Below are positions 1 to 27,601 of a stretch of 27,601 bases of DNA, piece after piece (position 1 is the stretch's first letter; every line of letters begins with the position of its first letter). The notes under the pieces were generated by a model. The model was not told where the DNA came from. It did no database searches and was given only the letters and a program-made list of their open reading frames with translations. Source of the DNA: a virus; the IMG/VR virus record IMGVR_UViG_3300044858_006286, positions 1 through 27,601 of that record. The stretch is one strand, 5' to 3'. Both the position numbers and the translations under genes were made by a program.

Positions 1-1732
1 CGTTATCCGACCAATAGGTTTGAATCTTCTTAACTAAGTCAAGCTGCTGAACTGCTGTCATATTTTTAGCTACAACACAGCTTTGTCCTGCAGAGCAAGG
101 GAAGGAGACAACAACAGTTGAATGATCTTCTTTACCGTCAAATCCGCGAACAAACTCAACGTGATAACCGAGCTCCCGGCAGATGTTAACCAGCTTATCA
201 CCAGAACCCATTCTCACTCTACGGATATAGAACGGTGAATAAGCTGGGTGTACCCCTGGAGTTGAACCTGCCAAAAGACTTAAAGTACCTGAAGGCTTTA
301 CTGTAGTCAGTTTAATTGATTCAGGATAACCCTTAGTCTTTGACCACTCTTTATCAAACTTACGAAGAGCTTCATAAGCTTTATCAAGCCATTCAATCTT
401 CTCATCTGAACACTGACAGATACCAGTTACACCGAGACCTAAACGCATGTTCTTATGAACAATCTTATTTGTCTCGTCGTGAATGAAAGGCATAGCAGCT
501 GTTGCTTTCTGTGTCTTGTATAACAGAGTAGCACAGTCGACGAGCTCTTCTACAGAAGAAATGTTATTGAGATAGAGCTCAGAGAGGTTACAACACTCGT
601 AAGAGGTTAATGAAATCTCAGCACAAGGATTAGTACCCAGAACGTTATCTTCGTTAGTAGGATAAAGCTTAGATGACTTCATAGGACCGTCTTTAAGACG
701 ACCAAACTTTTGTGATAAGGGAAGGTTAAAGAAGCCATAAGGTTCACCTTTAGCAAACCCGGTCTCTTTATCAGTTACATAACCGTTAGTCCAAATCTCA
801 GATGAAATATGGGAAAAGTCATCAGCATAAATCGTATTATTGGACATAGCTCTCCAGTTAGGAATGTTACCCAAAGACCAGTTCTTAGCTCTGAGATAGA
901 GATAGTCATCAGGATCACCTAGAGCGATCTGAGCTGAACGACGAACGTTCCCGGCAACAACAATACTGCCAATAATATTGCAGATGTCAAGTACGTCGGT
1001 TGATCTTAGCTTTTTACCTTCTCTTAATTGGAAGATCTTAGAAATCTTTTCAATACCTTCAATAAGAATACCAGGACCGGAAGCAGTACCACCGAAACCA
1101 GCAATCCTCTCACCAGCACCTCTAACAAGAATAGTTGAGTAAGAGAATGACTTACCGGTGTCGTAGTAAGCTTGTAATGTCTTACGAAGCAGTTCTACCC
1201 AGCCCTGACGTGAATCAGGAACAATAAAGTCAGCATCCTTAGTATTGTGATGTTCTACGGTTACCCCTCTCTTAATCTTAGGAAGTTCGTGAATGTCTTC
1301 TCTGCGAATAGAGAAACCAACACCACCACCTAACATAAGGTTTTCAAAGACGAACAAAAAGGTCTTCGGGTCATTGATAGAAACGTACCAGCAGTTAAGC
1401 AAAGAGTTAGCACCAAACCTCTTAACTGTTTCTGTGCCTAGCTGCCAAAGCATACGGCCAGCAAAGTTACACTTAAGATTAAAAACCAGATCGTAAAGAC
1501 GCTGTGCTTCAGCAGGGGTATAACCAGCTCCAATCTCTTGTGCACCATTGATACAGCGCGCCACTGTCTGCCACCACTCTTCTGTATTGTCTGTACCTTC
1601 GATCTTACGAGCATATGTTCTCTTGTAGACAATGTAGCCTAAGCCGTTAAAGCCCCAAGGTACTTCTTTGTTTACATATTGTTGTAGGAATGATTCTGGT
1701 AACAGATCAGAGGAATAGTTTGTGGTACTCAT
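1..1732 (-). CDS. nrdJ: Adenosylcobalamin-dependent (class II, monomeric) ribonucleoside-triphosphate reductase, 3' end beyond window
   Basis: I translated the reverse strand from the ATG at 1732 and it stays open for 577 codons to the window edge, so the C-terminus is missing. The enzyme reduces ribonucleoside triphosphates to deoxy forms using coenzyme B12, feeding phage DNA synthesis. Seen: NPCAEIS at residues 368-374 and CC at 380-381. The spacing C370 to C381 (11 residues) and E372 match C408, C419 and E410 of the Lactobacillus leichmannii enzyme. C114 (LLNCWYVS) fits its C119 partner. A glycine-rich LMLGGGVGFSI (132-142) and TTVKPSGTLSLLAG (476-489) are also present. The known enzyme has about 739 residues, so roughly 160 are cut off, including the C-terminal shuttle cysteines. 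There is no Shine-Dalgarno before the start. The gene lies 69 bp downstream of the 181-aa gene on the same strand. The family call is firm; the symbol follows common usage. Confidence 0.93.
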   Translation of the reverse strand, partial: MSTTNYSSDLLPESFLQQYVNKEVPWGFNGLGYIVYKRTYARKIEGTDNTEEWWQTVARCINGAQEIGAGYTPAEAQRLYDLVFNLKCNFAGRMLWQLGTETVKRFGANSLLNCWYVSINDPKTFLFVFENLMLGGGVGFSIRREDIHELPKIKRGVTVEHHNTKDADFIVPDSRQGWVELLRKTLQAYYDTGKSFSYSTILVRGAGERIAGFGGTASGPGILIEGIEKISKIFQLREGKKLRSTDVLDICNIIGSIVVAGNVRRSAQIALGDPDDYLYLRAKNWSLGNIPNWRAMSNNTIYADDFSHISSEIWTNGYVTDKETGFAKGEPYGFFNLPLSQKFGRLKDGPMKSSKLYPTNEDNVLGTNPCAEISLTSYECCNLSELYLNNISSVEELVDCATLLYKTQKATAAMPFIHDETNKIVHKNMRLGLGVTGICQCSDEKIEWLDKAYEALRKFDKEWSKTKGYPESIKLTTVKPSGTLSLLAGSTPGVHPAYSPFYIRRVRMGSGDKLVNICRELGYHVEFVRGFDGKEDHSTVVVSFPCSAGQSCVVAKNMTAVQQLDLVKKIQTYWSDN

Positions 1733-2396: not shown

Positions 2397-2897
2397 ATGG
2401 CCATAAAAATCAAAAGTCTTGAAGATGCCTCTAAAACCTTTGTAGATCAAAAATACGTCTACAAAGACTTATTTTTAGATTTTGAGTTTAGTCGTCAAAT
2501 AACTCCTGGATACACTCAATCCACTCTTGGCAGCGATATTAAAGCTGACTTTGATTTAGGAGCCATAAAGAACTCTTTAACTAATTTATTTAACACTTTA
2601 CCCGGTCAAAGATTCTTATTCCCTGAATACGGTTTAGACTTATATCAATTTTTATTTTCTCCAGTAACTGTCGAAAACGGCGATCTTATTGGTAATGTTA
2701 TTTACAATGGTATTAAGACTTACGAACCTCGAGTTATACCAAAACAAGTTAGGGTAGCAGCAGACCCTGACAACAATCAGTATTTTGTCTCAATAATTAT
2801 TGAGGTACCCGTTTTCAACATAATCACAGATACAAACTTTCTTTTTGATATAAAGAAGCAGTCTTTTGTGTTTATAGAAACATCACGAAACAATTAA
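2397..2897 (+). CDS. gp25: Baseplate wedge subunit gp25 (GPW/gp25 lysozyme-like fold)
   Basis: gp25 is a small core subunit of the T4-type baseplate wedge. It binds gp6 and gp53 and contacts the bottom of the sheath. Seen: the family signature at about residues 68-87, LPGQRFLFPEYGLDLYQFLF, and the EPRV motif near 110 followed by alternating beta strands (YFVSIIIEVPVF). T4 gp25 has 132 residues; this protein has 166, with about 30 extra at the N-terminus. The start is the first in-frame ATG after the divergent promoter region. The gene is followed after 3 nt by gp6, the usual neighbour and structural partner, which makes co-expression likely. The GPW/gp25 family has a lysozyme-like name, but no enzymatic role is expected. 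Confidence 0.93.
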   Translation: MAIKIKSLEDASKTFVDQKYVYKDLFLDFEFSRQITPGYTQSTLGSDIKADFDLGAIKNSLTNLFNTLPGQRFLFPEYGLDLYQFLFSPVTVENGDLIGNVIYNGIKTYEPRVIPKQVRVAADPDNNQYFVSIIIEVPVFNIITDTNFLFDIKKQSFVFIETSRNN

Positions 2898-2900
2898 AAT

Positions 2901-4718
2901 ATGGCAAACAACAACAGCAACTTTGAAATACCTAAGGGCGGATATGTAGCCTTTGATGCATTATCGTTAAGACAGCTTATTGTTCAGCGACTTAATCAGC
3001 AAAACGTCTTTACAGATCAAAACTTCATAGGTTCAAATCTAGCTGCAGTTATTGATATTGTTGCCTATTCTTATAACACTCTTATCTACTATCTTAACAA
3101 AACGTCTACGGAATCAATGTTTACTGAAGCGCAGTTGTATGAAAACATGAATCGCATTGTTAAATTAGTAGATTACAGCCCGGTTGGCTTTCAGACATCT
3201 ACCCTAACGTTCGGGTGCTCAGCACAAGCAGCTCTAACTCAGGGCATTTACACAATACCCCGTTATTCCTACATTATAGCAAACAACATACCTTTTTCTT
3301 TTAATGAAGACATAACATTTGTAAAAGAAACAAATGGAGTTGAAGACCTTAACGAACTCTCTCAACAAAAACTACTTTTCCAAGGTCGTTATGAGGAGTA
3401 CCCGGTGTATACAGCAGCCGGCGACAGTAACGAAACATTAATACTCGATGTTAGTAACGTTTTAGTTGACCACTTTAATATTGATGTTTATGTTAAACCC
3501 GCTCTCACCGGTACTTGGAGACAGTATTCAAAAACTGCAAATCTTTATCTAGAAAATAGCTCGGCTGAAAGATATGAAATAAGACTGAATAGCAATAATC
3601 GCTATGAAATCAGATTCGGAAACAATGTAAACGGCAAAAAGCTTGAAACTGGAGATCAAATAGCAGTATATTATCTGGTTAGTAACGGAGCGAACGGTGA
3701 AATCGGACCTAACGTTCTTAATAATAACTCAGTTCTTGTAAACTATAATACCACTCAGTTTAATCAGATATTAACTGATACACTCAATAACCAGTATCGC
3801 TACCTTACAAATTCTGAGATGACAAACGTAAAATTTGTTAACACAACATCTTCTACCCTATCTCAAGAAAAAGAAACAGTCGAGCAGATTCGAGCAGCTG
3901 CACCTGCACTTTATCGTAGTCAGTACCGTCTTGTTACTACAACAGATTATGAAACCTTCGTAAAAACTAATTTTGCTAATTTATTGTCTGATGTAAAGGC
4001 TGTAAATAACTGGGATTATGTTTCAGGATATCTCAAGTACTTTTACGATATAGGTATTGATGCCCCTGCAAAGACTGATCGTGCTCTACTCAATCAGGTG
4101 CTGTTTTCAGATGCATGTAATTTTAATAATGTTTACCTAATTGTTGTCCCAAAGACTGCGTCTAATGGTCAATTCAATTATTTGTTCCCTGCTCAGAAAG
4201 AACTTATCAACTCCGGTGTACAAAATACAAAAATGGCCACAACTGAAACAACATTTATAGATCCAGTCTATAAAGCAGTATCTTTAGGGGTTGGAGATTC
4301 TAGCTTCACCCCTGCTGATGAAGATCTTTGTGAGCTTACTGTCACAAAAGCAAGCAATTCTCGAAGAGATAACCAAGCTATTATAAACGATATTGTAAAT
4401 ATTATTTCTTCTTACTTTAGCAGAAACAACCTAAAACTTGGTCAAGTTCTTAACATAAGAGACCTCACACAGCAGATTCTAGGTATAGACGGAGTATCAA
4501 CGTTTTTTACTACAAGAACTGATGACCCTACTATAAGAACTGAGGGACTATCTCTATTTGTCTGGAACCCAATTTATCCAGGCAACGATAAAATCGTTAC
4601 ACAAAATAACGTAGCATTTAAATACTTTGAATATCCTTACTTTAACAATATTGCCCTTTTATCAAACAAGATTAAGGTACTTACCAATAACACCTTATAC
4701 GGAAACACTGAGTACTAA
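2901..4718 (+). CDS. gp6: Baseplate wedge subunit gp6 (baseplate J-like)
   Basis: gp6 forms the inner ring that links the six wedges of a T4-type baseplate and changes shape when the sheath contracts. Seen: an N-terminal segment typical of gp6 (LRQLIVQRLNQQNVFTDQNF, about 22-41, then IDIVAYSYNTLIYYLN). The J-like core includes VTTTDYETFV (about 344-353). The C-terminal LGQVLNIRDLTQQILGIDGV (about 513-532) is the end domain of the J family. At 605 residues it is slightly shorter than T4 gp6 (660). It starts 3 nt after gp25 with no Shine-Dalgarno, so it is probably translationally coupled. The next gene follows after 8 nt. Confidence 0.93.
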   Translation: MANNNSNFEIPKGGYVAFDALSLRQLIVQRLNQQNVFTDQNFIGSNLAAVIDIVAYSYNTLIYYLNKTSTESMFTEAQLYENMNRIVKLVDYSPVGFQTSTLTFGCSAQAALTQGIYTIPRYSYIIANNIPFSFNEDITFVKETNGVEDLNELSQQKLLFQGRYEEYPVYTAAGDSNETLILDVSNVLVDHFNIDVYVKPALTGTWRQYSKTANLYLENSSAERYEIRLNSNNRYEIRFGNNVNGKKLETGDQIAVYYLVSNGANGEIGPNVLNNNSVLVNYNTTQFNQILTDTLNNQYRYLTNSEMTNVKFVNTTSSTLSQEKETVEQIRAAAPALYRSQYRLVTTTDYETFVKTNFANLLSDVKAVNNWDYVSGYLKYFYDIGIDAPAKTDRALLNQVLFSDACNFNNVYLIVVPKTASNGQFNYLFPAQKELINSGVQNTKMATTETTFIDPVYKAVSLGVGDSSFTPADEDLCELTVTKASNSRRDNQAIINDIVNIISSYFSRNNLKLGQVLNIRDLTQQILGIDGVSTFFTTRTDDPTIRTEGLSLFVWNPIYPGNDKIVTQNNVAFKYFEYPYFNNIALLSNKIKVLTNNTLYGNTEY

Positions 4719-12906: not shown

Positions 12907-14787
12907 ATGACTACAGACTTTACAGTATTATCAGGAATTACCGTAACCCAGAACTATAACTGGGATAAAGGTCTACCGTTTACTGTAGGTCTTTCCGCTA
13001 AAACTAACCCACAAACTCTTACAATTTCAGATATAAACGACTCGACTTCTATTTATATTTCTGGTTACGCTCCCGGGTTTAGAGTTTTTTTTAAAAACAA
13101 CTCTTCAAGCGACCCTGATTTTAGCTTTATAAATTATAATTGGGATTTTGGTGATTTTTACAACGATTCAAATAATACCGTTTCACTATGCTGTTTAGCA
13201 GATGTAGAGCATACCTACATCATGCCCGGCCAGTATACTGTCTCTCTTACACTAATACAGTCAAAGGAACAAACAGGGGCGTTTGTTGGAGAAACCCAAT
13301 GTTTGGGTAAATATAACTATCAGTGGTACTGGGATAACCTAGTTTGTGATAGAGCGGAAACCGTGACCTGGGATGAGGCGGCCTGTAACGGTATAAGATC
13401 GAAATGGTGGGATAACGAAACACAATGTTTTCAAAAATATTGTAAGTTTTGGTCTTGGTATGATTTACGGAGCGCGAGTGAAGCTGCAAACCCGGTAACT
13501 TGGGAACAGACTATGAGCGTAGGTCCTCAAGCTACTTTTACCAAAAAATGGGCATTTGAAGCAAACGATACTGTATGTACTTCAAACACAGACACTACTT
13601 TTATTAATACAGTTATTACTCAATCTCAAACTACTATTAAAACAGCGGTAGTAGAAGTTTTTGAGCTGATACCCGTTGCTAAGCTCTATTTAGTGTCTCA
13701 GCCCGTATCTGGTATTTCACCACTATCGGTACAGATATCCCCGCGTAATACAATAGCAGGTAGTTTTCCTATAGACCGTATTGATTGGGACCCTGGTGAT
13801 GGAACACCTATAAAAACTGTAACTAGGTACACCACACCTAATTCTAATTTATTTACCTACACCAGTGCATTTTCAGCCGATATGCCTGACCCGCGTAATT
13901 ATGACTTTTTGCACACTTACAAGAGAACAATAGACACATATTCAATGTTCTATCCCTCTATAACTGCATATAGCAGCTCAACAGGTACTAAAGATAGCTG
14001 CTCTTTAACAGTAGGCCCTGTTGCTTTATCGAGCTACTCAAACAATATAAGTTTACTGAAAGGCAGAAACACACCTACCGGTAACTTATATAGTTTACAA
14101 ATAGATAACAATGTTACGTTTGTAACAACACAAACCGGAAGCAATAATGCAACCTACACTTTAAATAAACCACAAAATATTATTAGGAACTCTTTTGGTT
14201 CTCCTGTAATCTATAAAGGTAACCCTGGAACAAACTACCCACCTATATATACCCCTACCTGTTTCCCGCCCATACCTAGAAGTAAATGGGCTGACTGGGA
14301 AGTTTTTTATACGGTTACTCCTAGTGAAACAATTTATGTATCACCGCCGTGGGACGAGTGGTCTTTGGCATCTTCGGCGGGAGCTGCCTGTGTTACGGTA
14401 TTCACTATATCTAACGGACAAACCTACACTATACTAAATAGTGCTATTAGTTCCTGTATAATTGAAGCAAACTACAATACCACCCTTGGTTCATGCGTAA
14501 CTTCTACAGGTATAACCTTTATTAATAATGCCGGAACAAACGTTTCTGTTAAAGTTGAAGGATCTGTAGATGATGAGTTTGTAGTTAACGGATCTGTCTA
14601 TGAACCGGGGGCGTATCCTTTTAATTGGAACACAGTCGGTAGTCCGTGCGGTAGCACTAACGGGGATAACGGAGCTCACAACTTTACATACTATGACACT
14701 CTAAGCAACACCGAAGTGATACTATTCCAAGCTAAGGATAATGGCTTTGGAGGTAGCTCGACCTGGACTGTTTATTTGTCAGTCTAG
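12907..14787 (+). CDS. PKD-domain virion protein with two Cys/Trp-rich modules
   Basis: 626 residues. PKD domain 1 begins near 54 (YNWDFGD at 77-83, then EHTYIMPGQYTVSLTLI). Its expected last strand (KTAVVEVFELIPV) appears only near residue 244. The ~125-residue gap holds two Cys/Trp modules starting at C132 (CLGKYNYQWYW) and C174 (CFQKYCKFWSW), ending KKWAFE at 218. PKD domain 2 spans about 257-374 (DWDPGDGTP near 293-301). The C-terminus is a beta-rich domain with several cysteines, ending DNGFGGSSTWTVYLSV, possibly a receptor-binding or carbohydrate-binding sandwich. The start is 1 nt after the previous stop, with no Shine-Dalgarno, so coupling to the 1660-aa gene is likely. A tail-fibre or adhesin role is inferred. 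Confidence 0.78.
   Translation: MTTDFTVLSGITVTQNYNWDKGLPFTVGLSAKTNPQTLTISDINDSTSIYISGYAPGFRVFFKNNSSSDPDFSFINYNWDFGDFYNDSNNTVSLCCLADVEHTYIMPGQYTVSLTLIQSKEQTGAFVGETQCLGKYNYQWYWDNLVCDRAETVTWDEAACNGIRSKWWDNETQCFQKYCKFWSWYDLRSASEAANPVTWEQTMSVGPQATFTKKWAFEANDTVCTSNTDTTFINTVITQSQTTIKTAVVEVFELIPVAKLYLVSQPVSGISPLSVQISPRNTIAGSFPIDRIDWDPGDGTPIKTVTRYTTPNSNLFTYTSAFSADMPDPRNYDFLHTYKRTIDTYSMFYPSITAYSSSTGTKDSCSLTVGPVALSSYSNNISLLKGRNTPTGNLYSLQIDNNVTFVTTQTGSNNATYTLNKPQNIIRNSFGSPVIYKGNPGTNYPPIYTPTCFPPIPRSKWADWEVFYTVTPSETIYVSPPWDEWSLASSAGAACVTVFTISNGQTYTILNSAISSCIIEANYNTTLGSCVTSTGITFINNAGTNVSVKVEGSVDDEFVVNGSVYEPGAYPFNWNTVGSPCGSTNGDNGAHNFTYYDTLSNTEVILFQAKDNGFGGSSTWTVYLSV
13300..13560 (+). repeat. Two tandem Cys/Trp-rich protein modules (copies A and B)
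   Basis: Residues 132-218 of the 626-aa protein. Copy A: CLGKYNYQWYW, then C and TVTWDEAACN. Copy B, 42 residues later: CFQKYCKFWSW, then PVTWEQ and KKWAFE. The shared pattern is C-x2-K-Y-x3-W-x-W, later (T/V)TW, later a K-W. The 1287-aa protein has two more copies. I know of no named domain with this pattern. Confidence 0.6.
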
Positions 14788-14796
14788 AAAATCGGT

Positions 14797-14804
14797 ATTA
14801 AATA
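14797..14804 (+). promoter_or_regulatory. TAAATA box before the 313-aa gene
   Basis: ATTAAATA ends 6 nt before the ATG at 14811, so a T4-type start would leave a leader of about 1 nt. It lies in a 23-bp gap, one of the wider gaps in the virion block. Confidence 0.4.
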
Positions 14805-14810
14805 TTAGTA

Positions 14811-15752
14811 ATGGTATCGGTTAACTATAAGTCTTTAACAGCTTTACAGCCTGTAGAGTTACAGTATAGCTATAATAGTCAAGAGCAATTACAGGCTCAA
14901 AAAACAAGCTACGCTGAAGGACTAACAGTCTACAGTATTGATGGTACAACCGATTTTAAGGATATTTCAATAAACAGAAGTTCCTGCTTTATATTAACCT
15001 CTGCAGTACCCTTAACCTCTTTTTTCGTTCCTCCTGAAAGAGTTAGTATAGGTACAGTTCCCTGCACAGTTAAGTTTCAACCTAGAAACACAAACGTAAA
15101 TTACGCTTTTTACAACGCTCAGGGTAATTTTGTTACTCTCTCGCCAGCTAGTGCAACAAACTTTTTTATTTACCCGGTTGGAGAAAATATAGTAGAAATA
15201 AAAGTTGATAGTAAGTTTGTACGCATACAACCTACATACCCTTACCGAGTTTTTTTAAGTAATGAAGAAATATTAGATTCTCAACTATATCTTCAACGTT
15301 TTTATATTACATATCAAGACAATCTTTTAACGTTAAAGGTAAAAGTAAACGAAGATTTAATAGGCTCTGAATTTCGTTATTTAGCTTTTAACAACGACAA
15401 TATTTTACGAGCAACAGGCTGTATACTAAACGACTCGGTCTTGAACGACTACATTCTTAAAGTTACAGACGTTACTACTACATCTCTCGATAAAAACTTT
15501 ATCCCTACAAATACTTGGGTAACATACTTTGAAGATTTTGAATCTCAAACCAACAATAAAACAGTAGCTATTAACAAAGTGTTTAATAATGCCCCTACCA
15601 ACTATCTTATAGACTTCCCTGTTGAAGAAGCAGTAAATACCGGAAAAGCTAAAATTAATATTGCTAACCTTAAAACAACCTACACCCCTACAGGTGGACC
15701 CGCACCGGTAGATAACTCGTACGAGGAGGTATTAGTTACCAGAAATGAATAA
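14811..15752 (+). CDS. 313-aa probable virion protein, unknown
   Basis: I recognise no family. It is mostly beta sequence, rich in N, T, Y and S, with few cysteines and no signal peptide or membrane span, like its neighbours. The N-terminus (TALQPVELQYSYNSQEQLQA) may be helical. The C-terminus is Pro/Gly-rich (TPTGGPAPVDNSYEEV), perhaps a flexible tail. Its stop overlaps the start of the 836-aa gene by 8 nt, which argues that the two are made together, perhaps in fixed ratio as parts of one fibre or baseplate arm. It lies between PKD- and LamG-containing proteins. It could be a fibre-connector or a peripheral wedge subunit; both are guesses. Confidence 0.7.
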   Translation: MVSVNYKSLTALQPVELQYSYNSQEQLQAQKTSYAEGLTVYSIDGTTDFKDISINRSSCFILTSAVPLTSFFVPPERVSIGTVPCTVKFQPRNTNVNYAFYNAQGNFVTLSPASATNFFIYPVGENIVEIKVDSKFVRIQPTYPYRVFLSNEEILDSQLYLQRFYITYQDNLLTLKVKVNEDLIGSEFRYLAFNNDNILRATGCILNDSVLNDYILKVTDVTTTSLDKNFIPTNTWVTYFEDFESQTNNKTVAINKVFNNAPTNYLIDFPVEEAVNTGKAKINIANLKTTYTPTGGPAPVDNSYEEVLVTRNE

Positions 15753-18255
15753 TTTAAAACAAAGAGAATATTACAAAATTTTTACAGGTACCAACCAAGA
15801 AGGAGGATTAGATAAAATACATCTCGGTTACGAATCAGATTCTGTAGAAATTACATTTAAAAAGGACTATCACACATATTTTCACGTACCTTTTTTTACT
15901 CAGGTTCAGGCTCTTAGCAACAACAACATTACGGGAGACGGAGCAACACCTGGCCCTATACCTGCAATGTCTGACCGAATACAGCAAAAGTTAGGAGGGT
16001 ACGGACAAAATACTCCGTGGGGCAACCCTTCAGGTAAAAGAACCTTTACAGGTACACCAGCTGTAACTAGTAATTCTAATCCATTAAACGGCTTTACTGA
16101 CGGCACTTGGCTGTGCAGCTGGCTATATTCAGTATCCGGAGAAAGCCCGCAATGGTTTGATAGATATTATAACCCGGGTAGAATAGCGTACGAAGAAGCA
16201 TTGCAGGGTGATGCAAACTTCGATGACTACATTATCAACGATCCTATCTTTGTTGATATCCCTTCAACAATGCTTCTTGAACCTGGTGTATGGTATCAAT
16301 ATTTTCACAACGGTGAAAAATCTGCTGCTGAAATAGTTAATAGTTTTGCGGGAGATGATAAAAGTAAATTAACTCTCAATATAGAAAATTGGTCTCCTTT
16401 GCCACGAGACACCTCTATTTACAATACCTCTATAATAACACAAAATTTTAAGAGTGAATGGATAGTTAACGACACAACACCTGGTACAATTCAAAAAGAA
16501 GTTTTAAGTTTTAAAAATACTGATTTTATTGATACAAGAGTTGTTTATAGTACCGCTTACAACAATCCTGATGAGTATACTTTAACTTTTTGGGCACAAA
16601 ATGATGATTGGCAAAATGCCCCCGGTACTCAACTTATAGGTAACTATAACGACGGGGGATACGGTGTATTTTTTAATAATTTAAAGTATTACCCTTATTT
16701 CGTTGTGCCTGAAACCTTTTACGGCCATGTCTTTTATTTTAATTCAGAAGGGAATAACTACTTAGACAAAAGCACCCAGGTCGGGTCAACAGATAATGTA
16801 AACACTGGCACAAGTAGCATTGTTCAGGTTGCAATTAATAGTAATAACGAAACTATTGTGGCAGATGCCGGTAACCAAAAAAGAATATATAAACTAAACC
16901 ATCTCGGTGATGTTATAGCTACCACTAAAAACTCAGTAGGAACAAATTACAATATAACAGGTATTCCAAAACTTATAGCTATAGATGGAAAAGATGGATG
17001 CTATCTAATAACTACAACCGACACTTACTACTTCGATAAAGACTTAATATTTGTCAGTTTGTCAGCAGGTCTGGGATATCAGGATAATGAGCTTATAGCC
17101 TTTGATACAACAGGCACTCTTGTCAGAGAGGCGTCTTGTTTAGATCTAAAATTTGATAATACTAATCAAAAATGGACCGTAAAAACAAACGGCGATCTCT
17201 ACTGTGAAAATGTTTCCCTATCGGGTATAGTAAATAACGTAACAAATATAGCTATAGATCCTGAAAATAATATATGGGCTCTTTATGGTACTAATAAGAT
17301 TTATAAAATTAACCCTGTATCAAAACAAATTATAGACTCATTTGAAATAGGAGTGGATGTTCCGTCAGATATTAAAAATATAAGTTTTATATATACATAT
17401 GATAGACTAGCTGATACTAAAGAATGGTATGCATTAATTTACCACAGCTACGAAAAAACTCTATATCAAGTAACTCTTAACGGCAAAATACATAAAACAA
17501 CACTTATACCGACAAAGCTTGATATCCAAATATCCCCTCCAACTATACAAGATAAAAATAATTTAACTTTTAACGGTAAGGGTGATTTTACTGGCTATGA
17601 GTGGAAGAGAATATTTCATAAAGTTCTTTACAATAACAACCCTCAAATACAATTTAAACAGGCAGTAAGACGTTTCAATACAGGGCTACCCCAATCCGTG
17701 CAAATTCTGTCCGTGCCAGTAAACTATCTTACAAGCGACACTTGGCATTTTATAACCTGCACATTACAAAACCGTACAATGAGAATCTATATTGATTCTC
17801 GTTTAAGAGATGAACTTGTTATACCCAACTCTTATATTATTAGTAATACTAGAAAAAACGATCTATACATCGGAACCCCTTGCGGTAAAACGACAAACCT
17901 TAATAAAGAAATAAATTCTACTGCTCTTATATTTGACGGTTTAATAGATAAAATAAGATTTTACAATTACGCAATAAAAAGCTCGTTCTTGCAGATATTT
18001 GTAAGAGAGTTATTTTTAGCTGAAGATCTTGTCTGGAATATACCAACTGCCAATCTTCAATATATTGAAATAGTTGACAGGTTTTTTAAACATAAACTAC
18101 CCGGTTCAAAAAGTCAGTTTTTTAAAATAAGATTAGCAGGGTCTCAGATTGCTGATACCGCTACTAGACAAACAATAGAAACTACTATTAGAGCTGCAGT
18201 AGAGCAAATCAAACCGGCATATTCAGAGCTTTTGAGTATAGAATGGATTGAATAA
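15745..18255 (+). CDS. Virion protein with LamG/concanavalin-like domain interrupted by a beta-propeller
   Basis: 836 residues. The N-terminal ~270 residues are unknown. Residues 277-312 (YTLTFWAQNDDW, then GGYGVFF) read as the first half of a LamG (concanavalin-A-like lectin) sandwich. The second half appears only at about 653-745: DTWHFITCTLQNRTMRIYID, then DLYIGTP, then FDGLIDKIRFYNYAI. Between them, about 358-588, lie NHL-like blades (VQVAINSNNETIVADAGNQK, NIAIDPENNIWALYG). The C-terminus (TRQTIETTIRAAVEQIKPAY) is helical and ends in EWIE. The start overlaps the previous gene by 8 nt; an AGGAGGT 14 nt upstream is too far away to be a normal ribosome site. LamG folds bind glycans or proteins, so a host-binding or adaptor role fits. 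Confidence 0.78.
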   Translation: MNNLKQREYYKIFTGTNQEGGLDKIHLGYESDSVEITFKKDYHTYFHVPFFTQVQALSNNNITGDGATPGPIPAMSDRIQQKLGGYGQNTPWGNPSGKRTFTGTPAVTSNSNPLNGFTDGTWLCSWLYSVSGESPQWFDRYYNPGRIAYEEALQGDANFDDYIINDPIFVDIPSTMLLEPGVWYQYFHNGEKSAAEIVNSFAGDDKSKLTLNIENWSPLPRDTSIYNTSIITQNFKSEWIVNDTTPGTIQKEVLSFKNTDFIDTRVVYSTAYNNPDEYTLTFWAQNDDWQNAPGTQLIGNYNDGGYGVFFNNLKYYPYFVVPETFYGHVFYFNSEGNNYLDKSTQVGSTDNVNTGTSSIVQVAINSNNETIVADAGNQKRIYKLNHLGDVIATTKNSVGTNYNITGIPKLIAIDGKDGCYLITTTDTYYFDKDLIFVSLSAGLGYQDNELIAFDTTGTLVREASCLDLKFDNTNQKWTVKTNGDLYCENVSLSGIVNNVTNIAIDPENNIWALYGTNKIYKINPVSKQIIDSFEIGVDVPSDIKNISFIYTYDRLADTKEWYALIYHSYEKTLYQVTLNGKIHKTTLIPTKLDIQISPPTIQDKNNLTFNGKGDFTGYEWKRIFHKVLYNNNPQIQFKQAVRRFNTGLPQSVQILSVPVNYLTSDTWHFITCTLQNRTMRIYIDSRLRDELVIPNSYIISNTRKNDLYIGTPCGKTTNLNKEINSTALIFDGLIDKIRFYNYAIKSSFLQIFVRELFLAEDLVWNIPTANLQYIEIVDRFFKHKLPGSKSQFFKIRLAGSQIADTATRQTIETTIRAAVEQIKPAYSELLSIEWIE
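16815..17510 (+). other. NHL-like beta-propeller region inside the LamG domain
   Basis: Roughly residues 358-588 of the 836-aa protein. Repeated units of the form hydrophobic-A-I-D/N-x-N-x-x-(I/V)-x-A/D are seen: VAINSNNETIVAD, IAIDGKDGCYLITT, IAIDPENNIWALYG. The flanks on both sides are LamG-like. Boundaries are approximate to about 20 residues. Confidence 0.55.
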
Positions 18256-18259
18256 ACCT

Positions 18260-18267
18260 GTTAAATA
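18260..18267 (+). promoter_or_regulatory. TAAATA box before the 1287-aa gene
   Basis: GTTAAATA ends 8 nt before the ATG at 18276 in a 20-bp gap, with a predicted leader of about 3 nt. No Shine-Dalgarno is present. Confidence 0.42.
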
Positions 18268-18275
18268 ATGTAATA

Positions 18276-21200
18276 ATGTCTAATTTTTTAACCATCCTAC
18301 CTGTAAGATTTGATAATGAGCCGTTTGTACGTTCTTTAACGGCTTCTATGCTTTTCTTGTCGGGTACAGAATACATACCTGCCACTGGAGCGGACATTGT
18401 GAGGTGGACATTTGACCCTACTACCGTATGGGCTGCCACGCTTAGCGGAGATACCTATACATCAGGTACCACCGCATCAGTTTCAGCTCTCGGAACTATG
18501 GTGTTTTATGTTACTGCAGACACTTATGATTTTACTATTGAAAACTACACTCTACTTCAAACCGGAATTACTGGAGCATTTTTATCAGGTTCCCCTTTAA
18601 GTGTAATCTCAACAAGTGCTTACGATATAGTTTATGATACATTTCCTTTTGTAGAGGGAATGACTACAATTTATATAAATTACGAAAACACTAACAATAG
18701 CACAATTTTTTATAGGTTAACAGCTGCCTCTCCTTACGTTTTTAACTATTATGCTACCAGTCCTTTCTTCAATTTAGGGGTAGCTCAATACAGAGGGGAT
18801 TATTTTGATAGCTGGTCAACTGTTAATAACACCGATACTCTTATTACGTCCTTCTCATCTCTTACCAGCTTTGATTCTAACTTACCTAGGGTTAGTAGTG
18901 TACAAGTTTATGTCTCAGCTATCTCAGCAATCGACTCACTCTCGTCTTGGTACTCTTCTCATCTTTACACAAATAGCTTATCTGCTAAATTTCTACGAAA
19001 CTTTTTAACAGCAGACTTTATTGGCTACCCAACGTATTATTTTGCCGATTTTCAAACCCAAGTAACTCTTACAAGCAGTAACTACACTACATCACCGGGG
19101 ATATGTTTTTACGGGGAAGGGCACACCGAGAAAATTAATTTATCGGCAGCTTTAAATAGTAATATTCAAAGGTATATTTGGACAGTAGGAGACAGCGATA
19201 CAGTAATATATCAAGTGTCTACAGTAGATCTTTCAGGAGCTCGAGCTGCAGTAAATATTAATACTGAAATAGGTTATTACCCTAGAATACCCGTATCACT
19301 GTTAGTAACCAACTCTGATATATTAACAAGTAGCCCTGTTGTATACTATCCCGAAAATCTCTCAGGCGGACCTTCTTTTTACCCATACTATAGTACTACT
19401 TTAGACGTAGAGGGAAATGAAAGTGTTGTTAATACGTATCTTAAGCAGAGTATAAAAGTTAATAGTTACGAGTCACCGCTGTCGTCTTTTTCACCGGGAA
19501 TTGAAGGTGAGGTTGAGCTTCCCGAGGATAATCAAGCCCAGTCTTACACCGCCTCTTTGGTTGTTGCTTTATCAGGTAAAGGTGCAATAGGAGGTTGCTT
19601 AGATAAGTATGGATTACTTTGGAAGTGGTCAACTTTTTCAGAGTGTTCCGCTTTTTCGACAGCGAGCCAGTTACCATCAAGTTGGGCAAATACTCAATGT
19701 CTTGTTTCTGCCGGCACGGTAGGCCCGTTATCCGCTACAAGCGCTCCCGCTGGAAAATACCCTAAAAGATGGAGAAACGAGGGAACACTTTCCGCCACAC
19801 AGTTCACTCCTAGTCCGGTATATTACACAGCTTCTAGTTTAAACTGGACCCTCTCCACCCCGTATTGGGAAGTAGACACAACACTACCCTCTACCATAAC
19901 AGACTATATATACACTTTAAGGTATGAAGACGACGGATCCACTCCCTTTACAGCCAGTATTAATAACGTAACCCCTATATATATTTCAGGCTCTCAGACT
20001 ATCTTTGGTATTATTTCCGCATTTCCCTATGATTGGCAGCAAAAACAGTTGCTACTAACCGATAGCGGCAACGCTACTATTGTACCTGAAAAACGGTTTA
20101 AGCTATATACTGCAAATAAATACCCGCTAACAGGCACTCAGGTAAAGTTTCAAAACTTATCTGTAAATCTAGCAGATGTTGATAGAGTTGTTATTGATTT
20201 AGGAGAAAATATTATACCTACGTTAAGCCCCGAGACAATAATATTATCAGGTGCAGATATTACAAAAGACATTTATACAACATACTTTGTGCCTGGCAAA
20301 AAAACTGTGCAAGCAACTGTGTTCTCAAACTCTGGGCAGTCTTTTGTAACTACATTTACAGATATCGTTGATGTTGTTACGAGGTACGATGACGTTGTTG
20401 TAGAAAATTATCGTACAAAAAACTCTGCACTTGTACTTCCTTGGCTTCAAAAACCTGTTATAGGTCCTAACGAATGGGTTACTGAAAATAATATTAATTC
20501 AGTTATAACAAAGTTTATAGACAATCTTAGCTATCTGCAAAATAGAGGTAGAGAATATTCAAGTGCAGTTACTGATTATATAGGCTGGCTGGGTACTCCA
20601 GCTATAACCGGCACCGGTTGTCCAGTGTATACGTGGGAAGATCTTGATTGTTTTAAGAATAATGAAAGTGTTACTTGGGTAGATGTTCAGCAACTTGATA
20701 CTAATCAACCTGAAATTACTGCTGATGGTAAATTAGTTACATGCGGTACTTGGGAACAACAGACTTGTAGCTCTCTATTACAAAACCCAAACTGCTTAGG
20801 TAAACACTGTATAGAGTGGAAGTGGAAAAGTCGTAAGTGCGCAACTGCAAAAGAAATTATTACCTGGAAAGACACAAGATGTAATCAACCATTTGCTAAA
20901 AAATGGTATTTTGAGCCCTGTGAGACAACTACTGGTGAAATCCTTATAGGTAATTACTGCGACGAAGGTTATTGGAATGTCAACATAACCCATTTAAACA
21001 AATATTACGACCCAATAAACAATTGTATCCCTATTACTAAGTGTATTTATCGATACATTGAAAGCCGTAACAATATAATCTATATCGGTCTTAATACTGA
21101 ACTTAAGGTTCTTTCTTCTGATTATGCTGCAACCCCTATTGCAAGTAGGCTGACCTTAGACGATGTTTCTTCGTTTAGAAATATTAAAGGACTGGGCGTA

Positions 21201-22139
21201 GATAGTCAAAATAAACTTTATATTTTAGACGCGGGGTTGAGTAAAGTTGGGTCGTATATTTTTAACCCAGATACAGCCAGCTGGGAGATATTTACCGTTT
21301 GGGGCGGTGTAGGTACTTCAAACTCTCAAACAAAATTTTTTACCCCTAATGATCTTCATATTGACTTAATAGATAATATTTGGATTGCCGATACCGGTAA
21401 TAAGTGTATAAAACAGTATTCCAATTCCGGTTCATGGCTTCAAACTATAAAAGATGATTTCTTTCAAGAGAATGAACCGCTGAGCGTGGTTGTTGATAGT
21501 GACAATCATCTTCATGTACTCACTAAAAAAGAAATTAGAATTTATACGTACAGTGGTGAATATTTAACAAGCTACTACTTTAACAATCTCACAAGCGAAA
21601 TACCAGTAAGAATTAAAACAAACAAAAACAGGGAAGTTATTTACGTAGTACTTAATAGCCAGGTTTACAAATTTTTTAGAAACGGAGTATATTACGGCGA
21701 AATTATTAATAATAAACCCTGTGTTACAGATATTAATGATGTTGTACAGGATGAATTCCGCAACGTGTTAATAGCGGCTGGCGACAAGGTAGTAAAATAT
21801 TTTGATGTGATGCAAGTAACAGATATAAAAGGGCCTTTACCTGGCACTTACTGGCCAACAAACAGTCTACTCATTCACAAAAATGAATACGTACAAAACT
21901 GGGTATACAATAAAGCGTTCCAGAGATTATGGGATAATATTGAGTTTTTTAGACATTCTTTAATTTTTGAAAACACCGGATGCAGAAAATATGTTGCCCC
22001 CGTTTATAGTAAAAATGACATATTAATTGGTCAAAACGAAATAGTAACTTCTGCAGTAGTTAATAGAGTTATTAGCTATCTGTGGACTAATCTGTCATCA
22101 GTAATAAATTATTTTGATCCTTCTTGTCCTAACGGATAA
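18276..22139 (+). CDS. 1287-aa virion protein: PKD-like domains, two Cys/Trp modules, C-terminal beta-propeller
   Basis: Ig/PKD-like sandwiches fill the first ~700 residues (for example IQRYIWTVGDSD, and FVPGKKTVQATVFSNSG near 672-688). A Cys/Trp module starts at C441 (CLDKYGLLWKW), right after a PKD-like strand. A longer Cys-rich block covers 782-883 and includes CLGKHCIEWKWKSRKC and KKWYFE. A propeller occupies about 944-1180 (GLGVDSQNKLYILDAG, DLHIDLIDNIWIADTGNK, VVVDSDNHLHVLTKK). A short motif of the form IG-x-NE-x-VT is present twice, at 729 and 1251, on each side of the block-propeller unit. The gene directly precedes the collar fibre gene, so a role in a distal tail fibre or baseplate-fibre adaptor is likely. 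No enzyme motif is visible. Confidence 0.8.
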   Translation: MSNFLTILPVRFDNEPFVRSLTASMLFLSGTEYIPATGADIVRWTFDPTTVWAATLSGDTYTSGTTASVSALGTMVFYVTADTYDFTIENYTLLQTGITGAFLSGSPLSVISTSAYDIVYDTFPFVEGMTTIYINYENTNNSTIFYRLTAASPYVFNYYATSPFFNLGVAQYRGDYFDSWSTVNNTDTLITSFSSLTSFDSNLPRVSSVQVYVSAISAIDSLSSWYSSHLYTNSLSAKFLRNFLTADFIGYPTYYFADFQTQVTLTSSNYTTSPGICFYGEGHTEKINLSAALNSNIQRYIWTVGDSDTVIYQVSTVDLSGARAAVNINTEIGYYPRIPVSLLVTNSDILTSSPVVYYPENLSGGPSFYPYYSTTLDVEGNESVVNTYLKQSIKVNSYESPLSSFSPGIEGEVELPEDNQAQSYTASLVVALSGKGAIGGCLDKYGLLWKWSTFSECSAFSTASQLPSSWANTQCLVSAGTVGPLSATSAPAGKYPKRWRNEGTLSATQFTPSPVYYTASSLNWTLSTPYWEVDTTLPSTITDYIYTLRYEDDGSTPFTASINNVTPIYISGSQTIFGIISAFPYDWQQKQLLLTDSGNATIVPEKRFKLYTANKYPLTGTQVKFQNLSVNLADVDRVVIDLGENIIPTLSPETIILSGADITKDIYTTYFVPGKKTVQATVFSNSGQSFVTTFTDIVDVVTRYDDVVVENYRTKNSALVLPWLQKPVIGPNEWVTENNINSVITKFIDNLSYLQNRGREYSSAVTDYIGWLGTPAITGTGCPVYTWEDLDCFKNNESVTWVDVQQLDTNQPEITADGKLVTCGTWEQQTCSSLLQNPNCLGKHCIEWKWKSRKCATAKEIITWKDTRCNQPFAKKWYFEPCETTTGEILIGNYCDEGYWNVNITHLNKYYDPINNCIPITKCIYRYIESRNNIIYIGLNTELKVLSSDYAATPIASRLTLDDVSSFRNIKGLGVDSQNKLYILDAGLSKVGSYIFNPDTASWEIFTVWGGVGTSNSQTKFFTPNDLHIDLIDNIWIADTGNKCIKQYSNSGSWLQTIKDDFFQENEPLSVVVDSDNHLHVLTKKEIRIYTYSGEYLTSYYFNNLTSEIPVRIKTNKNREVIYVVLNSQVYKFFRNGVYYGEIINNKPCVTDINDVVQDEFRNVLIAAGDKVVKYFDVMQVTDIKGPLPGTYWPTNSLLIHKNEYVQNWVYNKAFQRLWDNIEFFRHSLIFENTGCRKYVAPVYSKNDILIGQNEIVTSAVVNRVISYLWTNLSSVINYFDPSCPNG
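19596..19785 (+). repeat. Cys/Trp-rich protein module, copy C
   Basis: Residues 441 to about 503 of the 1287-aa protein: CLDKYGLLWKW, then C, SSWANTQC, and KRWRNE. It fits the C-x2-K-Y-x3-W-x-W pattern of copies A and B, but the second half is longer. Confidence 0.5.
20619..20924 (+). repeat. Cys/Trp-rich protein module, copy D, with an extra Cys-rich arm
   Basis: Residues 782-883 of the 1287-aa protein. The arm (CPVYTWEDLDC, SVTWVD, CGTWEQQTC) precedes CLGKHCIEWKWKSRKC, IITWKDTRCN and KKWYFEPCE. The core aligns with copy A (CLGK, W-x-W, TW-x4-CN) and shares KKW-x-FE with copy B. Confidence 0.58.
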
Positions 22140-22150: not shown

Positions 22151-22819
22151 ATGTCCTGTCCTACAGTAACAACAATTCAAAAAACTGAGTGCATCGGTAA
22201 CTCACTTGTTACTATTAACTCTAATTTCGCTTCTCTTAAAGATGCTGCCTGTGATAATTCTCAGCAGATACAGGCTTTATTGAATAGCTTTGTCGGGGTA
22301 GTATCTTATTTCCCTGCAACGACTGCGCCCGCGGGATGGCTTGTGCTGAATGGTAGTGTGCTTTCAAGAGCCGAGTATTCAAATCTTTGGACGTTTGCTA
22401 GTAATAGCGGCAATATAACAACAACTGATGCTAGCTGGTTCTCTCTAAGTGCTGTAGGTCGTTTTAGCCCCGGAAACGGATCAACAACTTTTAGGTTGCC
22501 TGATTTAAGAGGTACGTTTGTAAGAAGCTTTGGAACATTAAACCCTTCAGTGGCTTCTGGTGGAATAGGCCTGTATCAGGCTGATGCATTTGAGAGTCAC
22601 ACCCATACGGGTACTACAAATACAGCGGGAGCACATACACATACAGCTTGTCAAGTCTACCCAATCGGTACCCAAGCTGAGGGAGGCGTCGCCGGTCGAC
22701 TGGGTTCCGGTGCAACCGGTTCAGCAGGAGCTCACTCTCATACTGTTTCTCTTAATAACACCGGTGGAACCGAAACCCGCCCTCACAACATAGCACTTTT
22801 ACCCTGCATTAAATACTAA
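22151..22819 (+). CDS. Tail fibre protein with phage collar domain (gp12-like short fibre)
   Basis: A 222-aa fibre protein. Residues 1-48 form an N-terminal module (IQKTECIGNSLVTINSNFAS, then LKDAACD) that also occurs in the next gene. Residues 49-130 carry the tail-collar domain (VVSYFPATTAPAGWLVLNGS, then LPDLRGTFVRSF). The C-terminus has three His clusters, HTHTG (150), HTHTA (162) and HSHT (195), and ends TRPHNIALLPCIKY. This is the classic ending of phage collar fibres; in T4 gp12 such histidines bind metal in the trimeric tip. T4 gp12 has 527 residues, so this is a short version lacking the long shaft. It probably attaches to the preceding large protein and contacts the host surface. 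Confidence 0.88.
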   Translation: MSCPTVTTIQKTECIGNSLVTINSNFASLKDAACDNSQQIQALLNSFVGVVSYFPATTAPAGWLVLNGSVLSRAEYSNLWTFASNSGNITTTDASWFSLSAVGRFSPGNGSTTFRLPDLRGTFVRSFGTLNPSVASGGIGLYQADAFESHTHTGTTNTAGAHTHTACQVYPIGTQAEGGVAGRLGSGATGSAGAHSHTVSLNNTGGTETRPHNIALLPCIKY

Positions 22820-24533: not shown

Positions 24534-25238
24534 ATGCAAAAAGTTCGTTATCTAGATAAAAAAATAAATGATAACGAGAGAAACCTCGTCTCTGGTTATT
24601 GGAAGGAGCAGATTGAGCATTACGGTGCTGAGGTAACATATTATACTCACGGCTACACTCTCTCCACCCATTTCTATCTATACGGTGAAGACACCACGGC
24701 TACTTTTGTAAGTGCAGGACCTATGGTCATGTTTACTGATATCACTAATGATGCCATTATGCTTTCAAAGTTCGGTATTATGGCTGACTGTGATATGACC
24801 TGTGTCATGCATATATCTTCCTTCCAAGAGACATTTGGTCAGTATAGAGAACCAAAAGCTGGAGACTTAATTGAATTAAAAGAGTATGGCGGATTTGGAG
24901 ATAGACCTGGCGGCAGAGGAGCTCCGGTGTATGAAATAACCGAGCGTGATGATCAGAATTTACAATTTAACGCTAACCAGCTTATGGGGCACTATATTTG
25001 GGTTATGAAATGTAAACGTTGGGAATACTCTTCCGAGCCTGGAGCCCCCAAAGAACCTCTTAATGTTCAGTTTAATGATGATAGTCCAGGTGGTCGTATG
25101 CCTGGTGGTGAGAACCCTGAAGAGCTAGTAACACCTTATGAACAATCTAATGATGCAGCAGCCAAGTGTATTATAGATGAAGATGCTAGAGATATTTCCG
25201 AGCCTTATGGGTATTACGGAAATCTTCCAGAATTATAA
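24534..25238 (+). CDS. gp14: Neck protein gp14
   Basis: gp14 and gp13 build the neck under the portal, to which the tail joins. At 234 residues it is near T4 gp14 (256). Family-like features: an early helix (NLVSGYWKEQIEHYGAEVTYY), a beta-rich core (FTDITNDAIMLSKFGIMADC), and EPKAGDLIEL (about 105-114), after which the chain turns to FE/YEIT and MKCKRWEYS. The C-terminus is Pro/Gly/Asp-rich and ends GYYGNLPEL. The start follows the previous stop by 1 nt without a Shine-Dalgarno. In T4 the gene order is 13-14; here gp14 comes first and gp13 lies 730 bp downstream behind an inserted homing endonuclease gene. The family call is from memory of T4-like neck proteins. Confidence 0.75.
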   Translation: MQKVRYLDKKINDNERNLVSGYWKEQIEHYGAEVTYYTHGYTLSTHFYLYGEDTTATFVSAGPMVMFTDITNDAIMLSKFGIMADCDMTCVMHISSFQETFGQYREPKAGDLIELKEYGGFGDRPGGRGAPVYEITERDDQNLQFNANQLMGHYIWVMKCKRWEYSSEPGAPKEPLNVQFNDDSPGGRMPGGENPEELVTPYEQSNDAAAKCIIDEDARDISEPYGYYGNLPEL

Positions 25239-25862
25239 AATTATTTTTCGTTTTCTATTTTTTGCTGCTATTGATAATTTTTTACGTTGTTCAATCCAGT
25301 TTGGACCGTAAATTTCTTTATATGTTTTACCTTTGCGGGGATCAACCCAATTATCACCGTATATTTCTTTTGCGGTTTTACCTTTTCTAGAATCAACCCA
25401 ATCTTGTCCGTGAATTTCTTTTGCGGTTTTACCTTTTAATGAGCTTATTTGTTTATGTGTTATACCCTTACGAGCGTTTGAAATGTTTTGTTTATGTTCT
25501 TCTGTTAACTTCTTACCTTTACGATTGGGCGGAAAAGCCGCTTTTTGACAAATATTAAAACCAATATCTTCATTATATGGTTTAAAATTATCTAGATATT
25601 TTTGTTCGAGATTTAAAAGATCTTTATCTGTAATTTCTTCAGAACAGCATTCCACACACTCAACTACAAAATTACATTTACCATATTTGTTAAAAGAGGC
25701 TTGCATATATCTGTTTAGATGTATATTTTGTTCTAGCTCTTTAAAGTGCCTTTGAATACGGTATCGAATATTGGTAGAACTACCTATATAAAACTTATTA
25801 TTAGAAAGGCATGTAATTTTATATACACCTTTGTTAGTTTGATTATTAAAAATATTATCCAT
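25233..25862 (-). CDS. GIY-YIG homing endonuclease with NUMOD3 and three 17-aa repeats
   Basis: 209 residues, opposite to the flanking virion genes and overlapping the end of gp14 tail-to-tail by 6 bp. The nuclease domain has GVY (12-14) and YIG (25-27), a conserved-type Arg near 33, Glu86 (NLEQKYL) and Asn103 (FNIC), all matching the GIY-YIG active-site layout. A NUMOD3-type DNA-binding motif follows (NRKGKKLTEEHKQNISNARK, 113-132). Then come three consecutive 17-residue repeats of KGKT-x-KEI(Y/H)G-x-x-W (143-159, 160-176, 177-193) and a basic tail. Such enzymes cut a target in a phage genome lacking the insert and so spread by repair. The gene is free-standing; no intron is evident. Expression probably depends on a separate promoter in 25863-25968. 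Confidence 0.92.
   Translation of the reverse strand: MDNIFNNQTNKGVYKITCLSNNKFYIGSSTNIRYRIQRHFKELEQNIHLNRYMQASFNKYGKCNFVVECVECCSEEITDKDLLNLEQKYLDNFKPYNEDIGFNICQKAAFPPNRKGKKLTEEHKQNISNARKGITHKQISSLKGKTAKEIHGQDWVDSRKGKTAKEIYGDNWVDPRKGKTYKEIYGPNWIEQRKKLSIAAKNRKRKIIL
25284..25436 (-). repeat. Three 51-bp tandem repeats inside the GIY-YIG gene
   Basis: Each unit encodes KGKT-x-KEI-(Y/H)-G-x-x-W-(V/I)-x-x-R. The first two units are nearly identical in DNA (both contain TTCTTTTGCGGTTTTACCTT on the plus strand), pointing to recent duplication. Each repeat is probably one DNA-contacting unit. Confidence 0.8.
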
Positions 25863-25968: not shown

Positions 25969-26895
25969 ATGAACGTATTGCCCCGGTACACCCCTGGATC
26001 TACTAATGCTAACCCTGTTATAGATTCTTATGATGCTTTAGCACAGCGTATACGTCGTCAAATGGGTGAGCCCTTAGTCAACGTTGAAATCGCTAATGAA
26101 CAAATTTACGACTGCATAGCTCAGTCTATGGAGTTCTTTACAAAGTATGCTGGGTATACTGAAGAATTTCTTGTTTTTGATTCCAAGTTATATCAAAAGG
26201 GAAAAGGTATTAAAGTTGACACTTTAATAAATCAAACTCAAGAAATGTATTCATCGTTTACCCCTGGTATGTCAGCTGGTTACGATTATGATATGGGAGC
26301 CTATCGTCGGGTGTTGGATTGTTTTTCATTTACATACGGTGAAACAACAGGTATTAATACTCTGTTTACTCTTGAGCAAGCTATGGCGCAGCAGATTTAC
26401 AGCAGCTATATGGTAAATGGCGGCTTCGGTTTTGATCTAGTAACTTGGGAAGTACTTAAAGGCTTTATCGATACTCGCAACAAAGTACTAGCAATGACAC
26501 CTCATTACCGCTTTGACCCTAAGACACAAATTCTTAGAATCATTCCTGAACCTATTCCTGAACAAACTTACTTGGGTATTGTAGGGTGCTATTTAGAGAA
26601 ACCTATTAAAGATATTATAAACGAGCGCTGGGTGTACCGTTATGCCCTCGCCTTATCAAAAATCACTGTTGGCAATGTGAGAGGTAAGTTCTCAGGTACT
26701 AATCTCTTTGGTGGTGGCCAGGTTAACTATTCAGACTTTATGTCTCAAGGTATACAAGAAAGAGATACTCTAGAAAACGAATTAAAGAACACTTACGAAG
26801 ATGTAACTGGTGCTATGTTCTTTATAGGAGCTGTAATGAAGACATTAATACCAGCTGCAAGTATCGTTTTTCCGTTTCTAAATACATGTATATAA
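25969..26895 (+). CDS. gp13: Neck protein gp13
   Basis: gp13 is the second neck protein, contacting the portal and gp14 to complete the head and receive the tail. The 308-residue length matches T4 gp13 (309). Seen: YDALAQRIRRQMGEPLVNVE (24-43) and IYDCIAQSMEFFTKYAGYTE (about 48-67), the characteristic N-terminal helical pair; then FDPKTQILRIIPEP and the closing WVYRYALALSKITVGNVRGK. The body ends in MFFIG near residue 285. About 20 further hydrophobic residues (AVMKTLIPAASIVFPFLNTC) follow, just where the next ORF starts inside this gene, so the tail may be a product of that insertion. Start ATG 6 nt after a TAAATA box. Confidence 0.8.
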   Translation: MNVLPRYTPGSTNANPVIDSYDALAQRIRRQMGEPLVNVEIANEQIYDCIAQSMEFFTKYAGYTEEFLVFDSKLYQKGKGIKVDTLINQTQEMYSSFTPGMSAGYDYDMGAYRRVLDCFSFTYGETTGINTLFTLEQAMAQQIYSSYMVNGGFGFDLVTWEVLKGFIDTRNKVLAMTPHYRFDPKTQILRIIPEPIPEQTYLGIVGCYLEKPIKDIINERWVYRYALALSKITVGNVRGKFSGTNLFGGGQVNYSDFMSQGIQERDTLENELKNTYEDVTGAMFFIGAVMKTLIPAASIVFPFLNTCI

Positions 26896-27601
26896 ACCCC
26901 TTTACGAGTAAAAGGAATATATTGTATTTTACTCAAGACGTTTTAAAAAAAATTATAAATTACTACAAAGAAACAAATTCTGTTTTAAAAGTTTCTAGAA
27001 AGTTTAACAAATCTCAAAGTCATATTAAAAGAATTCTTAATGCTAATAATATTCAAACTTACAACCGATTTGAGTCTACTCTTAGTAGAAAACCTAAACT
27101 ATCTTCTATCTATAAAGAAAAAAATAACATCATTAAAAAATATAAAAATAACGTTTCTTTAAAAGCGATAGCAGAGGAATATAATGTAGATACTTCTTCT
27201 ATAAAAACACTCATTAAAAAATACAGCTTATTAAAACCTTCTTTAAATTATCAAAAAACACTAGCACCTTTTAAAGAACAAATAATACAACTTTATAATA
27301 ATAATGCTTCTATAAAACAAATTGCTAACACTTTTAACGTACCTGATCTTTCTTTAGCAAGATTTCTAACACAAAACAATATACATACCCCCTATTACAG
27401 AAGCAAGCAAAACAACGCAATACCGGTTTCAGATGCAGAGAAGATTTATAAACTACATCATAACGATAATTTAACTCTTAAAGATATAGGCAATTTATAC
27501 AACTGCAGTGCTCCTACAGTTGCTTCATTCTTTGATAAAAATAGTATACCCAGAAGATCTAAAACTGAATCAGTTATATTAACCAATCAAGATGAAACTA
27601 T
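26886..27601 (+). CDS. Partial multi-helix-turn-helix protein, probable homing endonuclease or recombination-type protein
   Basis: I translated this frame myself: open from the ATG at 26886, inside the last codons of gp13, to the window edge (238 codons). Four helix-turn-helix repeats about 55-75 residues apart are seen: VLKVSRKFNKSQSHIKRILN, SLKAIAEEYNVDTSSIKTLI, SIKQIANTFNVPDLSLARFL and TLKDIGNLYNCSAPTVASFF. This resembles the resolvase-type HTH arrays that form the DNA-reading arm of many phage homing endonucleases, whose nuclease domain lies C-terminal and would be outside the window. The stretch is visibly more AT-rich and more Lys/Asn/Ile-biased than gp13, consistent with a recent insertion. 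No nuclease motif is visible yet. It could instead be a regulator. Confidence 0.65.
   Translation, partial: MYINPFTSKRNILYFTQDVLKKIINYYKETNSVLKVSRKFNKSQSHIKRILNANNIQTYNRFESTLSRKPKLSSIYKEKNNIIKKYKNNVSLKAIAEEYNVDTSSIKTLIKKYSLLKPSLNYQKTLAPFKEQIIQLYNNNASIKQIANTFNVPDLSLARFLTQNNIHTPYYRSKQNNAIPVSDAEKIYKLHHNDNLTLKDIGNLYNCSAPTVASFFDKNSIPRRSKTESVILTNQDET

Follow-up and report, generated by a model that had tools for sequence, protein, structure and literature searches.

Two large proteins of a viral baseplate region carry a short module rich in cysteine and tryptophan, repeated within each of them, which raises the question of what this module is and what a phage would use it for. The reading that we prefer, at a probability of about one half, is that of an accessory domain, specific to this lineage and carried on Ig-like stalks in the baseplate region, a putative attachment knob whose two ends would be tied by cysteines where these are present. 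Its main rival is a structural clamp within the baseplate.

The locus and its genes

The DNA that was analysed, here called the window, is a stretch of 27,601 nucleotides from an uncultured viral contig and contains a T4-like baseplate region. Its proteins are also found at 100% identity on the IMG/VR contig IMGVR_UViG_3300042347_001156 (46,660 bases). The locus is marked by gp25-like and gp6-like baseplate wedge genes (2397 to 4718, plus strand; GPW_gp25 7.5e-14 in Pfam, phrog_219 1.2e-40) that start at 2397 and 2901, respectively; the gp6-like product is about 25-27% identical to gp6 of cyanophages and other T4-like phages. As in the T4-like baseplate wedge locus, these genes stand in order, here ahead of the module proteins. 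Unlike gp6, genes 12907, 15745 and 18276 have no matching record among about 50,000 phage genomes, where gp6 is the only recognisable part of the locus. Large proteins of unknown family are encoded by genes 4727, 7923, 12907 and 14811.

Gene 12907 (12907 to 14787, plus strand) encodes 626 amino acids with two PKD domains, two tandem modules and a window-specific C-terminal extension. Gene 15745 (15745 to 18255, plus strand), its neighbour in the baseplate region, has a laminin-G/ConA-like domain (Laminin_G_3, E 4.8e-8, above the Pfam cut-off) and NHL-like domains. Gene 18276 (18276 to 22139, plus strand; 1287 amino acids) combines NHL-type repeats with a PKD-like domain and the modules B, C0 and C, and is followed by a tail-collar fibre gene starting at 22151. 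A phage ribonucleotide reductase gene (2 to 1732, minus strand) adjoins the baseplate genes on the opposite strand, and endonucleases of the homing type, which PHROGs class as GIY-YIG-like and HNH-like, are interspersed with head-tail connector genes at 25236 to 25862 (minus strand) and 26886 to 27599 (plus strand).

Module copies in the window

A sequence-only reading of this DNA had listed four copies of the module, at 13300, 13426, 19596 and 20793. The motif C-x2-K-(Y/H)-x3-W-x-W is present exactly there, and in all four copies it is followed by TW or SW and then by a late K-x-W or KW. The module is a real repeat in proteins of a tail or baseplate locus, as had been claimed: a profile trained on 118 modules, all taken from phages other than that of the window, recovers every one of the four copies. 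All are on the plus strand. Gene 12907 contains module A1 (13300 to 13425, i-E 1.2e-13) and module A2 (13426 to 13578, as far as the closing cysteine, i-E 4.3e-17); gene 18276 contains module B, a long form (...SSW...KRW; 19596 to 19784, i-E 8.5e-16), and module C (20793 to 20921, i-E 1.4e-16). The best E-value of the same profile against 11,166 reversed or shuffled proteins was 0.18. A degenerate fifth copy, C0 (20619 to 20768, plus strand; CPVYTW...VTW...CGTW...C), was absent from the earlier list. It lies in tandem with C, has an HMM i-E of 0.047, aligns to the module profile with an hhalign probability of 91.3 and is also kept in relatives.

Cysteines had been described as scarce in the rest of the two proteins. 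This is true of gene 18276, where 15 of 20 cysteines are in or beside modules, and is weaker for gene 12907 (6 of 14), in which several further cysteines sit in the C-terminal extension. The extension (14245 to 14784, about 180 amino acids) is missing in all aligned homologues; it matches only its own contig in the viral collection and has no convincing match in Pfam or the phage records.

Definition and distribution of the family

Relatives were collected by three routes, using the anchor gene 15745 (24 loci), gene 12907 (47 loci) and a context-free DNA pattern (at least 119 stretches). With the module profile, the first set of loci yielded 114 copies, and the overall count is at least 133 unique copies, nearly all on uncultured viral contigs. 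The module is about 42-63 residues long. In the alignment of copies the family is defined by four tryptophans and a final Lys-x-Trp; besides the tryptophans, the constant positions are an aromatic residue or histidine four residues ahead of the first tryptophan and a lysine two residues ahead of the last. Homologues of gene 12907 typically carry a tandem pair, and homologues of gene 18276 one long B copy plus a C0-C pair. Two gene 12907 homologues (L065:9938-11443 and L066:9902-11398) have three tandem modules, two of which lack the first C-x2-K-Y part. The gene 18276 homologue of L003 (L003:9983-14506) has a big internal repetition, in which a module and an Ig-like domain recur about three times, and its B modules number four.

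Among the matches listed in the context-free pattern scan of viral contigs, all copies with E < 1e-4 lie in homologues of gene 12907 or 18276, and no convincing module was found outside these homologues. A scan of genome contigs gave bacterial and archaeal matches to the PKD region only, with no convincing module. Searches of about 50,000 phage records by tblastn, with the module proteins, single and tandem modules and distant homologues as queries, gave nothing convincing. Within this sampling, the family is restricted to uncultured phages of a T4-like lineage.

Placement on PKD domains

The modules are placed within or beside Ig-like domains of the PKD type. In gene 12907 a PKD domain is recognised by PKD_4 (PF18911; E 6.5e-10, 39.4 bits against a cut-off of 27) and by PF00801 (28.3 against 23.5). 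A fold search with the AlphaFold2 model relates the second PKD domain of this protein to the PKD domain of ColG (Z 9.4, 87 residues at 2.0 A). Relative to shorter homologues, A1-A2 is an insertion at the last hairpin of the first PKD domain; in alignments, homologues without the pair retain both strands of this hairpin, joined directly. Long strands flank A1-A2 in the model (residues 108-122 and 235-252 of the gene 12907 product). In gene 18276, modules B and C0/C flank a PKD-like domain (20088 to 20387, plus strand; residues ~605-704 of the product, AlphaFold2 pLDDT ~66-88), which has Z 9.6-10.1 to solved PKD-type domains over ~85 residues at ~2.2 A. This domain has no Pfam PKD match, and the resemblance is one of fold alone.

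The AlphaFold2 model of gene 12907, made with 28 sequences, has a mean pLDDT of 73.9, with confident PKD folds and modules at ~43-55. That of gene 18276 has a mean of 57.2, with modules B, C0 and C poorly modelled, and across both models module pLDDT is ~30-55. Matches in the fold searches are confined to the PKD-like and propeller-like parts. The module is not itself a PKD domain, but an extra piece within or beside one. PKD domains are known from surface enzymes of bacteria and from phage proteins that bind receptors. Receptor-binding proteins of Bacillus myophages are among their carriers (PMC11406892).

Presence, absence and the question of a structural clamp

In a tree built from gene 15745, the anchor protein, modules are distributed across the main clade. 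Two separate lineages, one comprising L010 and L018 and the other L003 and L014, cleanly lack the A1-A2 pair in gene 12907 homologues that are otherwise intact. L003, which lacks the pair, is the locus whose gene 18276 homologue has expanded to four B copies. The copy number is therefore variable and the pair dispensable. L007, L009 and L028 keep the A pair and lack module C.

These absences bear on the main alternative to an attachment knob, namely that the modules act as structural clamps: packed on each other or on neighbouring baseplate subunits, they would stiffen or lock the PKD stalks and have no role in host binding. Such a clamp would fit a module that is shared by two neighbouring gene products of the locus and, among the matches listed, is found nowhere else; it would also fit the recurrent tandem pairing (A1-A2, C0-C) and the packing-core-like invariance of the tryptophans, which look more like core residues than exposed binding residues. 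However, with the A pair or module C missing in some lineages, the module is not essential to assembly, and we regard the clamp as unlikely, though still the strongest of the competing explanations.

Outside the tryptophans and cysteines, the A modules have a mean pairwise identity of 34-36%, compared with 50-54% for the PKD domains. Lower conservation outside this frame is expected of a display surface; it may also merely mean relaxed constraint.

Comparison with known domain families

No named family had been recognised in the module, and profile searches of Pfam, NCBIfam, PHROGs and PDB sequences agree, returning no convincing match. Scans of Pfam, NCBIfam and PHROGs with 8 and with 22 modules gave nothing better than E 0.028, and the weak matches were scattered over unrelated families, mostly with one module each.

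The module might still be a divergent form of a known small fold rich in tryptophan and cysteine that lies beyond the reach of profiles, such as the thrombospondin type 1 repeat, the WW domain or a small carbohydrate-binding module. The thrombospondin type 1 repeat is short, rich in tryptophan and cysteine, often tandem and extracellular, with W-x2-W spacing, a CSxTCG motif, six conserved cysteines and a three-stranded fold in which tryptophan and arginine residues stack. Our module is likewise short, rich in these two residues and often tandem, and a shared fold is possible where a profile match is weak or absent. However, its spacing is W-x-W rather than W-x2-W, it has a K-x-W near its end, and no more than one of its cysteine pairs covaries; the module alignment contains neither W-x2-W nor six conserved cysteines. 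None of the families named was matched in Pfam, NCBIfam, PHROGs or PDB sequences up to E 10, and we consider a hidden relationship of this kind improbable.

Cysteines of the module

The sequence-only reading had suggested a knob stabilised by metal or by disulphides. One cysteine pair does behave like a disulphide; as a general description the suggestion is not supported, with most cysteines varying between copies. The pair consists of C6, the cysteine of 'KYC', and Cpost, the cysteine just past the last tryptophan. All 46 copies that have C6 also have Cpost, and 52 of the 60 copies without C6 also lack Cpost. Of the eight exceptions, five are degenerate extra copies, and in the other three the cysteine scored as Cpost is a constitutive one further on. 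In module C both cysteines are present in 25 loci and neither in five, the result of four independent changes, all in step; in module A2 of L028 both are missing, as judged by eye. A tree-aware test counts 4-5 independent events, with a sign test p of 0.125 for four. That C6 and Cpost are gained or lost together fits a disulphide linking the ends of the module.

The first cysteine is nearly always there, with an inconsistent partner. The remaining cysteines vary freely, and a copy may have up to five cysteines or, as in L003 and L056, a single one. A pairing of C16 with C29 is plausible in A1 and was dropped as a general rule, many B copies having just one of the two. Module C of L010 (L010:8395-14403) and of L018 (L018:12777-18806) lacks the near-constant first cysteine and has an extra cysteine nearby (SSCCSW), which may compensate for the loss. 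A zinc-ribbon-like knob, with the cysteines forming a site for zinc or another metal, could draw on the five cysteines of some copies but is very improbable, since only two cysteines covary while the others come and go singly, and four Cys/His ligands per module are not conserved.

A putative attachment knob

The attachment knob is favoured by its display on Ig-like stalks, its dispensability, its variable copy number, its faster change outside the frame and the lectin-like neighbour with Laminin_G_3. In this model the four tryptophans and the Lys-x-Trp end would form a compact core, and a C6-Cpost disulphide, where the pair is present, would tie both ends of the module together. The module would then be an accessory knob at the tip of an Ig-like stalk, aiding contact between the tail and a surface, either that of the host envelope or a matrix, together with the neighbouring laminin-G/ConA-like protein. 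The module would probably serve attachment. The sequence-only reading had also pictured exposed aromatics suited to binding sugars or surfaces; with the modules modelled at pLDDT ~30-55, such exposure and any sugar binding are conjectural. A wider formulation, in which the module represents a new small class of domain with a tryptophan frame and one disulphide in some subclasses, serving in variable copy number as a general surface-attachment knob on two baseplate-region proteins, is more tentative and somewhat doubtful.

In gut phages, adhesion by Ig-like proteins has been demonstrated (PMC13370021). There, as putatively here, modular Ig-like domains of the phage particle serve adhesion; the difference is that the Ig-like domains of the gut phages adhere themselves, whereas the proteins of the window have an undescribed module added to them. 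No convincing match to the module came from Pfam, NCBIfam, PHROGs, PDB sequences or the phage records, about 50,000 in number, and at the level of sequence it is undescribed in these collections.

If the attachment reading is true, an undescribed domain family would be added to the attachment apparatus of a group of phages for which no cultured member was found here. The module would also provide a sequence signature by which this lineage may be recognised in metagenomes, and, at about 45 residues, a compact domain that would be open to direct testing.
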